From Thermoplasmatota archaeon (GTDB lineage: Archaea; Thermoplasmatota; Thermoplasmata; UBA10834): a DNA stretch of 64,000 bases. The notes under the pieces are model-generated. The model saw only the letters and a list, made by a program, of their open reading frames with translations, did not search any database and was not told the DNA's origin. Location: NCBI GenBank assembly GCA_018818785.1, contig JAHIRF010000005.1, positions 186,001 to 250,000 of the forward strand, written 5' to 3'. Both the position numbers and the translations under genes were made by a program. Of the stretch, positions 9,209-13,550 are shown piece after piece; position 1 is the first letter of the stretch, and the number at the start of each line of letters is the position of its first letter.

Positions 9209-9467
9209 CGATGTGTCCTTGCTCCGATCATCTGGGTGCGTCTAGAGTCGACGCATTTCCCGTCAGTGTGATAACCCGTGGCAATGGTGCAGTTAATAAT
9301 ATTTGCCCAAAACGCTATTATTATTATCCAATTATTATAGTACAATACACCAAATATATGCTGTCTGGAGGGGAATCCGGCCCAAACCTCTCGATGGATG
9401 ATAGTCATTAAATACTTGAACGAACTACACGGGCTGCTAACGCAGCCTAGGGTATCTACGCCGCCCA
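9209..9467. other. Intergenic region upstream of tRNA-Lys
   Basis: I see no gene here. Positions 9294-9361 are very AT-rich with TTA/TAA repeats, including an inverted TAATAAT/ATTATTA pair, and may terminate the flavodoxin transcript. A TATA-like TTAAATAC at 9408-9415 is the likely tRNA-Lys promoter. A 6-bp GC stem (GGCTGC/GCAGCC, 9432-9447, loop TAAC) lies near the predicted transcription start. Confidence 0.5.
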
Positions 9468-9489
9468 GGGCCCGTAGCTCAGCTAGGTA

Positions 9490-9528
9490 GGAATCTCATG
9501 CATTCTCGATGTTATGGTTTCCCTAGAA
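9490..9528 (+). other. Putative archaeal tRNA intron in the D-loop
   Basis: The exon bases CUAGG (9483-9487) pair with intron bases CCUAG (9522-9526). Three-nt bulges UAG (9488-9490) and AAA (9527-9529) flank this helix, and a short GAA/UUC intron helix follows. Cleavage after the second base of each bulge gives a 39-nt intron. The outer D-stem helix is separated by an unpaired AG, so the motif is relaxed rather than perfect. Confidence 0.75.
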
Positions 9529-9567
9529 AGAGCATCTGCCTTTTAAGCAGGTGGCCCGGGGTTCGAA

Positions 9568-9597
9568 TGACTACGCCATACAGACTAGTCTCGGAAA
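9568..9597 (+). other. Putative archaeal tRNA intron in the T-loop
   Basis: Outer helix: the T-stem CGGGG/CCCCG. Central helix: exon UUCG (9562-9565) with intron CGGA (9592-9595). Bulges: AAU (9566-9568) and AAU (9596-9598). Intron helix: GACUA (9569-9573) with UAGUC (9586-9590). Cleavage after the second bulge base restores the universal T-loop UUCGAAU. Confidence 0.82.
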
Positions 9598-9635
9598 TCC
9601 CCGCGGGCCCGCCGGGCGTCGACTGCGGACCGGGG

Positions 9636-9697: not shown

Positions 9698-9955
9698 ATG
9701 GCCGGAGAATTTAACGTCTTGGAGCATGAGCTCGTACCCGAGTATCATCTTCTGTCGGAGAAGGAGGCCGAGAAGGTCCTTAAGCAGCTGAAGCTTACGA
9801 AGGACCAGCTTCCAAAGACAAGGATAACTGACCCGTGCATTCGCACGCTCGATGCGATTGTTGGGCCAGTCGAAGAGGGAATGGTAGTCAAGATCGTCAG
9901 GCGCAGCTCAACGAGCGGCGTGTCGATCTGTTACAGACTTGTAGTGCGGGGGTGA
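9698..9955 (+). CDS. rpoH: RNA polymerase subunit H (Rpo5, RPB5 C-terminal homologue)
   Basis: 85 aa. Subunit H is the small jaw component of archaeal RNA polymerase. The body [19 protein letters not shown] and the C-terminal [15 protein letters not shown] are characteristic, as is the ~80-residue length. ATG 9698 is chosen over ATG 9686 because GGTG lies 6 nt upstream and archaeal H starts just before the HxLVP segment. It opens the rpoH-rpoB-rpoA1-rpoA2-rpl30e-nusA operon, 4 bp before rpoB. Confidence 0.94.
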
Positions 9956-9959
9956 ACCC

Positions 9960-12900
9960 TTGAGGGAACTTGTTGAAACCTATTTCAGGGAAAGAAGTGT
10001 AGTCAACCATCACACAGCGTCGTACAACGATTTCCTGCCGACGATAGACCATCCGAACAGCAGGATGCAGACGATCGTGGACAACGTCCGCGCATCTCCC
10101 GACGAGGCCGACAGGGGGATAATCCGGCTCGACCCAGACCGGACCGAGGGCAAGATCATCGAGATCAGGATCGGTCGCAGAAGGGACGAGAAGACCGGGC
10201 GCGTTGATCCAAGCGCCAGGCCGACGATATCTGTCGGAAGGCCGGTGATCAAGGAGGCCAATGGTGCCACCCACGACCTCTATCCGATGGAGGCGAGGTT
10301 GAGGAACCTCAATTACTCCGCACCGATTCATCTCGAATTCACGATCGTAGAGGACGGGATCGAACGCGAGCCAGAGAGGGTGCACATCGGTGACCTGCCC
10401 GTAATGATACAGTCCAAGAAGTGCAACCTGCACAAAGACAACATCGACATGGACCGCGAACCGACCGACGAAGACGTCCGCGAGTTTCATGTGAAGATGG
10501 GCGAAGATTTGTGCGACCCAGGCGGCTATTTCATCATAGGTGGTACCGAGAGGGCGCTGATATCCCTCGAGGACCTCGCGCCGAACAGGGTCATGGTCGA
10601 GATGAACGAGCGCTACGGCACGAGCCTACACGTTGCGAAAGTATTCTCGCAGAAGGAAGGTTACAGGGCGCTCACTCTGATGGAGAAGAAGAAGGACGGT
10701 ATACTGGTCGTATCAGTGCCCGCTGCCTCCGGTCAGATCCCGTTAATAGTCCTCATGAAGTCTCTCGGGATGGAGAGTGATGAGGAGATATACAAATCGA
10801 TAGTGTCTGATCCGCAGATGGCGAACATCGTGTACGCCAACATCGAAGAGTGTCAGAACAAGAAGCTGTATCCTCCGAACGGCATCTACACGACCGAGGA
10901 CGCGATACTGTTCCTCGAGAGGAAGTTCGCGACTGGCCAGGCGAAGGAATACAGGGCGAAGAAGGTCGAGAGCATAATCGACCGGTCCCTGCTACCACAC
11001 CTTGGTGACACCTCGGATGCGAGGATGAAGAAGTCCATATTCCTGGGCCGTGTCGCCAGAGCCATACTCGAACTTGAGCTCGGCAAGCGTAAGGAGGACG
11101 ACAAGGACCACTACGCTAACAAGAGGTTGAAGCTCGCAGGCGACCTGATGGAGGACCTCTATAGGGTCGCTTTCACCAACCTGATCAAGGACCTGAAGTA
11201 CCAACTGGAGCGAGGGTACACGAGGAAGAAGGGCATGAGGATATCCTCGGCCATAAGACCTGATCTACTCACCCACAGGTTGCTCCATGCGTTCGCGACC
11301 GGCAACTGGGTCGGCGGAAGGGCTGGTGTCTCTCAATTGCTGGACAGGACGTCCAACATGAGCGCGCTGTCCCACCTTAGGAGGGTAACATCGCCACTCA
11401 CCAGGAGCCAGCCTCACTTCGAGGCGAGGGACCTGCACCCCACTCAATGGGGTCGATTGTGTCCGAACGAGACTCCTGAAGGTCAGAATTGCGGTCTGGT
11501 CAAGAACTGCGCTCTCATCATCGATGTGAGTGAGGGGACGGACGACAAGGAGGTCATCTGGCTCCTGCGCGACCTTGGCGTGAAGGAGGTCAGCGAGCAG
11601 CAGACGACCGAGACCCGTGTCTATGTCAACGGTGACCTGATAGGTCTCCACGACAAGCCCAAAGAGCTGGTCGAGGAGATACGCCAGAGGCGCAGGTCCG
11701 GCCTGTTGTCGCACGAGGTCAACATACGCTTCGACAACAACATGAATGAGATCATTATCAACTGCGACGAGGGCAGGCTGAGGAGGCCTCTGCTCGTCGT
11801 CCGCCACGGCAAGACGCTCATGACCCGGAGGCACATCGAGGACATGCGGTCGCATAAGGCGAAGTGGTCCGACCTCATACGCGAGGGAGTCGTCGAATGG
11901 ATCGATGCGGAAGAAGAGGAAGATTCCTATATCGCCGTGTTCGCGCACGAGACACCTCAGAAGTGTGAGCACTGCGGAAAGTTCCTGTCCACACTCGATG
12001 TGGAATGGCGCAACCCTGGAGAGGAGGGCAAGACCGTCCTGGAGTGCAAGTCATGTGGCGGCACGATGCAGATCGAATCGCAACTGAAGGATAACCACAC
12101 TCACCTGGAGATCGACCCGATGGTCATCCTGGGTGTGTGTTCAGGCATGGTTCCGTACCCCGAGCACAACTCTAGCCCGAGGGTCACCATGGGTGCGGGT
12201 ATGGCCAAGCAGTCGTTGGGCCTGAGTTCGTCCAACTACCGCATAAGGCCGGATACCCGGAGTCACGTGATGCACTATCCGCAGCGGTCGTTGACGACCA
12301 CGAAGACGATGGAGTTCGTCAACTTCATGCACAGGCCCGCGGGACAGAACTTCGTTGTCGCGATAATGTCGTATCAGGGTTACAACATGGAAGATGCGAT
12401 CGTCATGAACAAGTCCTCCGTCGAGAGGGGGCTGGGCCGATCGACCTTCATGAGGACCTACAGGGCGGAGGAGCGCAGGTATCCGGGAGGTCAGGAGGAC
12501 CACTTCGAGATACCGAGTCCGGATGTTAGAGGCGCCAGAGCCGACCTCTCCTACAGCAACTTGGGTGAGGACGGTCTCATCGGCCCTGAGACGAGGGTCG
12601 AGGGCGGTGATGTGCTCATAGGCAAGACGTCACCTCCGAGGTTCTTGGAGGAGGAAGCTGATTTCCTCACACCTCAGAAGAGGAGGGAGACATCCGTCAC
12701 GGTCCGTCCAGGCGAGAGCGGCTGGGTCGACTCCGTCATGCTGACTGAGTCCGAGAACGGGTCGAGGCTCGTCAAGGTCAAGGTCAGGGATCAGAGGATC
12801 CCGGAGCTGGGGGACAAGTTCGCTTCCAGACACGGCCAGAAGGGTGTCGTCGGATTGCTCGTGCACCAGGAGGACATGCCGTTCACTGGTGACGGATTGA

Positions 12901-13546
12901 TCCCAGACCTGATCATCAACCCGCACGCCATCCCATCCCGTATGACCGTCGCCCACGTGCTGGAGATGGTCGGCGGCAAGGTCGGCTCGATGGAAGGCAG
13001 ATTCATGGACGGTACCGCGTTCAGCGGCGAGACGGAAGAGGCGATCAGAGACGCGCTCATACGGAACGGGTTCAAGCATAACGGTAACGAGGTCATGTAT
13101 GACGGGGTCACCGGCCGCAAGATAGAGGCGGAGATATTCATCGGCGTGATCTACTACCAGAAGCTGCACCACATGGTATCTGGTAAATTGCATGTCAGGA
13201 GCAGAGGCCCGGTCCAGATACTCACCAGACAGCCGACCGAGGGGCGCTCGAGGCAGGGCGGTCTGAGATTCGGTGAGATGGAGAGGGATTGCCTGATCGG
13301 TCACGGGGCCGCGATGGTCATCAAGGACAGGCTCTTGGATGAATCTGATGGTACGCTGCAATATGTCTGTGGCAACTCGAGCTGCGGACATATCGCGATC
13401 CTGGATAGGAGAGGCACGTTGAGGTGCCCTGTCTGTGGCAATAACTCGAAGATATACCAGGTCCAGACATCCTACGCGTTCAAACTGTTGCTCGACGAGC
13501 TTCTGTCGCTTGGTGTCGCCATGCGCCTTCAACTGGAGGATTTGAA

Positions 13547-13550
<4 letters not shown>
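9960..13550 (+). CDS. rpoB: DNA-directed RNA polymerase subunit B (unsplit)
   Basis: 1196 aa with a TTG start preceded by GGGGGTGA. It is the second-largest catalytic subunit and is undivided; many methanogens and halophiles split it into B'' and B'. Recognisable blocks include the N-terminal lobe, a central zinc site (CEHCGKFL...CKSCGG, about residues 668-703), [11 protein letters not shown], the [15 protein letters not shown] motif, and a C-terminal zinc ribbon (CGNSSCGH...CPVCGN). Its end overlaps rpoA1 by four bases (ATGA), implying translational coupling. Confidence 0.97.

Follow-up and report, generated by a model that had tools for sequence, protein, structure and literature searches.

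The window analysed in this work is a stretch of 64,000 nucleotides (C12:186001-250000) of a Thermoplasmatota genome of 1.97 Mb that is 94.5% complete. At 9468..9611, on the forward strand like all other window features given below, it carries a tRNA-Lys(UUU) gene interrupted by two introns, recognized from its sequence, from ARAGORN analysis of the spliced form and from its conservation in relatives. Exon 1 (9468..9488, read from the sequence) comprises the acceptor 5' strand, the D-stem 5' strand and the D-loop up to U20. Exon 2 (9529..9567) starts with A21 and runs through the D-stem 3' strand, the anticodon arm with UUU at 9542-9544, the variable region, the T-stem 5' strand and the T-loop up to A59, while exon 3 (9598..9611) consists of U60, the 3' strands of the T-stem and acceptor, and discriminator G73. 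Between them lie a D-loop intron of 40 nt (9489..9528) at position 20/21 and a T-loop intron of 30 nt (9568..9597) at position 59/60, both delimited by sequence, fold and covariation; the positions follow standard tRNA numbering as assigned in this analysis. The exons read GGGCCCG-TA-GCTC-AGCTAGGT before the first intron, A-GAGC-A-TCTGC-CTTTTAA-GCAGG-TGGCC-CGGGG-TTCGAA between the two, and T-CCCCG-CGGGCCC-G after the second, which leaves a mature product of 74 nt, GGGCCCGTAGCTCAGCTAGGTAGAGCATCTGCCTTTTAAGCAGGTGGCCCGGGGTTCGAATCCCCGCGGGCCCG. The CCA end is not fully encoded, the sequence being GCCG. Downstream are located rpoH (Rpb5 C-terminal domain, 9698..9955; Pfam PF01191, 8.2e-25) and, directly after it, rpoB (9960-13550).

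The unspliced gene was missed by both ARAGORN and Rfam cmscan. Spliced in silico, it was called by ARAGORN as tRNA-Lys(ttt) with every stem paired, and excision thus gives a complete tRNA, as expected for introns of the EndA type. The precursor is predicted to fold into an interrupted cloverleaf (z = -2.97; an equally good fold in 1 of 200 shuffles), in which the D- and T-stems stay intact and each intron forms a hairpin on top. A split or permuted tRNA is ruled out, since the exons follow in order within 144 nt, and so is an assembly artefact, as independent assemblies show the identical layout. The leader (9448-9467) and trailer (9612-9625) of the gene can pair over 5 bp (CGCCC/GGGCG, p = 0.10), and 8-10 bp of such pairing was noticed in some relatives, with 9-10 bp in one genus of the family (L223, L238, L283, L288); with just 5 bp at this p value in the window, we do not claim it as a special processing signal.

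Both junctions of the Lys gene show 3-nt bulges flanking a 4-bp central helix, the arrangement of a bulge-helix-bulge (BHB) motif. In the D-arm, the D-stem GCTC/GAGC is followed by a 2x3 internal loop, the central helix CTAG/CTAG (9483-9486/9523-9526) and the intron helix GGAA/TTCC (9490-9493/9519-9522), with bulges GT|A on the 5' side (9487-9489) and AA|A on the 3' side (9527-9529), where the bar indicates the predicted cut. This motif is relaxed, because exon nucleotides AG at 9481-9482 are unpaired opposite the 3' bulge and form the 2x3 loop at the 3' site. In the T-arm, the T-stem is topped by the central helix TTCG/CGGA (9562-9565/9592-9595), two AA|T bulges (9566-9568 and 9596-9598) and the 5-bp intron helix GACTA/TAGTC (9569-9573/9586-9590); opposite the 5' bulge lies a single extra unpaired T (9591). 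The predicted cuts yield D- and T-arm sequences exactly as in uninterrupted tRNAs, and the D-arm GCTCAGCTAGGTAGAGC is common to the spliced tRNA-Lys(UUU) and the tRNA-Lys(CUU) of the same genome. An earlier note, made from the sequence alone, had described a tRNA-Lys(UUU) gene with introns in both loops, and this description holds. Its 30-nt estimate for the T-loop insertion was right and its figure of about 39 nt for the D-loop one was a nucleotide short. The T-loop helices and AAT bulges were also described properly, except that the unpaired T at 9591 was overlooked, and the reading of the D-loop motif as a relaxed BHB agrees with our fold.

A covariance search of the genome gave 42 tRNAs. 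In the anticodon list, which was taken from ARAGORN with tRNA-Thr(CGU), misread by the program as tRNA-Gly(gcc), re-read by eye, the other Lys tRNA has the anticodon CUU and a second Lys(UUU) does not occur. BLAST with the mature sequence found no further tRNA-Lys(UUU) in the 94.5%-complete genome; the missing part could strictly still hold an intact copy, but relatives need none. The second intact gene that the earlier note had named as the sign of a pseudogene was therefore not found. Neighbouring genes do use AAA codons (14 AAA, 122 AAG), and since this is the sole Lys(UUU) gene found, the locus is needed. A decaying pseudogene that acquired two insertions, with AAA codons read by another tRNA, would explain why standard tRNA finders are silent here. 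Against it, all stems are perfect once the insertions are excised, and the gene is the only tRNA-Lys(UUU) among the tRNAs found. Its exons are moreover near-identical across the family, and its introns vary only so as to keep pairing. Uniqueness, perfect exons and covariation rule this explanation out, leaving it a negligible probability.

Across the host's family the doubly interrupted gene recurs, in most cases a short way upstream of rpoH-rpoB. Among 60 sampled genomes of relatives, both introns were present in all 16 genomes of family f1 with a parsed gene and in both parsed genomes of the sister family f2. Other families of the class have Lys(UUU) genes with both introns, one or neither, the gene being intact in f6, f14 and f18, and two genomes (G026 and G044), read by eye, have three introns in it. 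When 84,980 species genomes were scanned, 70 records matched the D-loop-interrupted form; their titles name Thermoplasmatota, Methanomassiliicoccales, 'Euryarchaeota', unnamed archaeal MAGs and one 'Methanomicrobia' bin. No Thermoproteota title occurs among these 70; the pattern was tuned to the D-loop layout of tRNA-Lys(UUU), so that it is silent on other layouts. Parsing resolved the D-loop intron in 68 other named genomes, which all seem to belong to Thermoplasmatota; together with the window this makes 69 genes. The T-loop intron is also present in 58/69 and an anticodon-region intron in 20/69, the layouts being D+T in 43, D+anticodon+T in 15, D+anticodon in five and D alone in six genes. 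Within the phylum, the pattern matches 21 of 292 genomes, in at least two classes, compared with 0/292 for the reversed control. Long T-loop introns of about 65-120 nt were noticed in tRNA-Lys(UUU) at L257, L277, L268 and L290, where each gene also has D-loop and anticodon-region introns.

The rpoH motif lies downstream of tRNA-Lys(UUU) in most relatives, for interrupted and intact genes alike. This common neighbour identifies them as orthologues whose introns were acquired or lost at this very locus. The interrupted arrangement is ancestral at least to the order, and probably older still. The earlier note had considered the layout unusual for Thermoplasmatota; conservation extends over the whole family, at least 69 genomes have it, and it is older than was supposed.

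In the search pattern for the D-loop form, the D-stem and the CTAG central helix were fixed and the intron helix was left free; the invariance of the former two is thus uninformative. In the D intron helix (53 distinct rows), all seven pairs are changed on both sides, with 107 cells of two-sided change versus 40.0 in shuffles (0 of 500 shuffles as high) and a covariation score of 0.286 versus 0.105. For the T intron helix (six pairs, 40 distinct rows), whose register with the extra nucleotide was picked after both registers had been inspected, there are 89 such cells versus 40.2 (again 0/500) and the score is 0.306 versus 0.129. Covariation scores are inflated by kinship, yet sliding the partner strand, which keeps kinship, removes most of the signal: pairing in the D intron helix drops from 92% to below 47%. 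Covariation this strong argues for maintained introns and not for decay. Chance does not explain the layout either: dozens of genomes show it with covarying helices, and the backwards D-loop pattern matched none of 292.

Introns of euryarchaeal tRNA-Trp are known guide RNAs, and conservation of the Lys introns could likewise reflect a function as small RNAs, all the more that the D intron is near-identical across family f1. On the other hand, visual inspection of the introns revealed neither a C/D nor an H/ACA box, and between families the loop sequences are wholly different, with the BHB helices kept; we consider a guide function very unlikely. From these observations we conclude with high confidence that the locus is a functional, single-copy tRNA-Lys(UUU) gene, whose two EndA-dependent introns at 20/21 and 59/60 would be cut out by EndA and the exons joined by RtcB.

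Non-canonical introns were found in 3 of about 45 tRNAs of the genome. Outside the window, on the reverse strand, tRNA-Thr(CGU) (C12:44356-44456, L021) has a 29-nt intron of strict BHB type at 20/21, in the context GCTC-AGCG-GT|T-GCGCCTGC...GCAGGTGC-CGCT-AG|A-GAGC. The tRNA-Arg(UCU) gene on the reverse strand of C11 (near 84,700-84,815, about 84,770; L186), missed by the covariance search and recovered by targeted patterns, is interrupted twice, in the anticodon loop and, by a 22-nt strict-BHB intron, at 59/60. In family f1 the introns of Thr(CGU) and Arg(UCU) are found again, with changed helix sequences that still pair; in G006 and G008 the anticodon intron of tRNA-Arg(UCU) was lost or never present. 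The strict-BHB introns occupy the same positions as the Lys introns, which marks 20/21 and 59/60 as the sites that this lineage prefers for additional introns. The targeted patterns also recovered tRNA-Trp(CCA) (C11 near 84,330-84,480, reverse strand; L158), which the covariance search had not reported either; its anticodon loop holds an intron of about 100 nt with box C/D-like motifs, a feature familiar from tRNA-Trp of euryarchaea. With the same approach tRNA-Arg(CCG) was not found in the genome; it may lie in the missing 5% or be otherwise disrupted. In other families of the class, T-loop introns were observed in Lys-CUU (L108, L117, L120 and L121, in G027, G048, G038 and G056, respectively) and in an elongator Met tRNA (L118, G043). 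We also noticed a copy of the tRNA-Gly(GCC) 3' end (T-arm and acceptor 3' strand, the rest absent) at C1:287486-287510 (L133), near the contig end, which may mark an integrated element. The T-arm-like sequence GGTTCAAATCC occurs without a tRNA at C7:85308, C5:168268, C5:166744, C5:168983 and C8:77301, in two sets of similar intergenic stretches that are probably repeats or element ends.

Across the genome, PF01974 matches a single protein of 351 aa (C12, L062:724-1779), EndA, once in each half; each half is a full unit with PF02778 and PF01974. The C-half carries the Tyr/His/Lys triad and both bulge-binding Arg residues, and the N-half, read by eye, has PSKWW at the expected place of the His motif. 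Among 30 relatives of the class, the triad is kept in all, the two Arg in 27, and none has an insertion at the CSL (Aeropyrum) or ASL (ARMAN-2) site. Among proteins of solved structure, the fused beta-alpha construct 5x89 of Methanopyrus kandleri comes closest (E 9.5e-37). With its fused units, a triad in the C-unit only and two Arg, EndA is in its predicted architecture of the fused alpha'2 type, and as an alpha'2-like enzyme it would be homodimeric. It differs from an (alpha-beta)2 enzyme with CSL in being a single fused protein with no insertion at the CSL site, and from epsilon2 in having two units instead of three and no ASL. RtcB is encoded in the genome as well (2.1e-180). The endonuclease type, whose identification the earlier note had proposed, came out as alpha'2-like from domains and alignment. 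The note had also predicted a broad-specificity endonuclease; a loop conferring it was sought in the alignment and is absent, and as the enzyme is of alpha'2 type with neither known loop, its sequence lends no support to this prediction. In f18 genomes EndA is about 290 aa and Thermoplasma-like, and the tRNA-Lys(UUU) gene is intact. Families f6 and f14 have a long two-domain EndA though their tRNA-Lys(UUU) is intact, hence the long form alone is no predictor of introns.

For cleavage, ligation and the order of events we infer the following course. The precursor would keep its D- and T-stems, each topped by a BHB-type motif; an EndA homodimer would read each motif locally and cut each 3-nt bulge behind its second nucleotide, at four sites in all, and RtcB would join the three exons. 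In sister families, introns would have been gained or lost at the orthologous locus. The D-loop/T-loop elbow is impossible until both introns are gone, so EndA would have to find its cut sites through the local motif, without help from the mature tRNA body. Archaeoglobus EndA handles looser motifs at 37/38 via the mature body (PMC6379350), a mode that is unavailable here because the elbow cannot form beforehand.

By their predicted fold, the Lys introns are slightly relaxed against the canonical-BHB limit described for alpha'2 substrates, and two explanations of how they are cut deserve attention. The enzyme may be truly broad in specificity through a feature other than CSL or ASL, for example its complete N-terminal half, which is reduced in the Thermoplasma type. 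Dozens of genomes keep relaxed Lys junctions, which must therefore be cut by some means; the two full units make 351 aa versus about 290 aa in f18 with its intact gene, and the best solved relative, 5x89, was termed 'constrained broad' (PMC6379350). We regard this explanation as possible but rather doubtful, given that all 30 class relatives are without an insertion at either loop site, that the two Arg in 27/30 are those of narrow alpha'2 enzymes, and that f6 and f14 combine the long enzyme with an intact gene. Alternatively, the ordinary specificity of homodimeric EndA in this phylum may suffice, minimal BHB and possibly bulge-helix-loop (BHL)-like motifs being cut without the mature tRNA body. 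For the homodimeric EndA of Ferroplasma acidarmanus, cleavage of a mini-BHB at 30 °C has been reported, and the authors of that study state that homodimeric forms are able to cut BHL-like motifs (PMC8707768). The Thr and Arg introns of this genome are strict BHB, and neither Lys junction has lost a 3-nt bulge or the 4-bp central helix. Against it, other reviews confine alpha'2 enzymes to canonical BHB, or allow BHL solely for full-length pre-tRNA at 37/38 (PMC6379350; PMC4033280), and the full-length mode needs the elbow that the Lys precursor lacks. An ordinary enzyme of this kind has, in our estimate, about an even chance of being the answer.

We are equally divided on the wider proposal that, in much of Thermoplasmatota, both elbow loops of a single pre-tRNA are freed of relaxed-BHB introns by a homodimeric alpha'2-type EndA that has none of the known specificity loops. 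If true, it would break the accepted rule that non-canonical tRNA introns co-evolve with CSL or ASL loops, and recognition would rely on the motif only, the mature tRNA body being dispensable. Whether homodimeric enzymes accept looser motifs is answered negatively in PMC4033280 and in the alpha'2 comparison of PMC12397907, and positively in PMC8707768; the conserved Lys introns are natural substrates on which this disagreement can be tested directly.

Standard finders miss the interrupted gene, and as a consequence genomes appear to be without an essential tRNA-Lys(UUU). The genome paper on Methanomassiliicoccales reported M. luminyensis as having no tRNA-Lys at all and blamed a sequencing gap (PMC4153887). 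Hidden introns are a possible explanation for the absent UUU gene. As tRNA-Lys(CUU) is intact in the seven named relatives tested (M. luminyensis not among them), the absence of all tRNA-Lys is not fully explained in this way.

According to reviews, a euryarchaeal tRNA gene carries a single intron, located at the canonical position, and alpha4 and alpha'2 enzymes cut canonical BHB only (PMC4090602, PMC4033280). Doubly and triply interrupted Lys(UUU) genes across Thermoplasmatota contradict the former statement, and a loop-less fused EndA beside such introns makes the latter directly testable. In the papers searched we found no description of tRNA introns in Thermoplasmatota; the tRNAscan-SE 2.0 survey tables may already list some of them. 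Multi-intron tRNAs as such were already known (PMC8450103), mainly in Crenarchaeota, Thermoplasmatota not being among the exceptions named (PMC4033280), and both insertion positions, 20/21 and 59/60, are on the published list (PMC4090602). As in Thermoproteota (PMC4090602, PMC4033280), the introns are of BHB type, lie outside 37/38 and occur several per gene, up to three; the host lineage differs, few tRNAs are affected, and in place of an (alpha-beta)2 EndA with CSL there is a fused alpha'2-like one without it. Korarchaeum cryptofilum, with its alpha2 EndA, likewise combines a homodimeric type with non-canonical tRNA introns and was in 2014 the sole homodimer-bearing archaeon known to do so (PMC4033280), but its enzyme is said to share the (alpha-beta)2 specificity loop, where ours has no insertion. 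EndA of Methanopyrus kandleri (5x89), a species listed with multi-intron tRNAs (PMC4033280), is the nearest in sequence among solved EndA structures, is also without CSL or ASL and comes from a euryarchaeon in the old sense; in nature it consists of two separate subunits, whereas here both halves form one 351-aa protein. ARMAN-1/2, with the epsilon2 system, also have non-canonical introns outside Thermoproteota, of relaxed type, but their enzyme has three units and an ASL against two units and no ASL here. The Asgard Atabeyarchaeia and Freyarchaeia are a further case outside Thermoproteota with many such introns, over 90% of tRNA genes being affected (PMC11291895), in contrast to the small conserved set of the present lineage. 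The introns described here are ordinary in kind; the lineage and the enzyme are unexpected.
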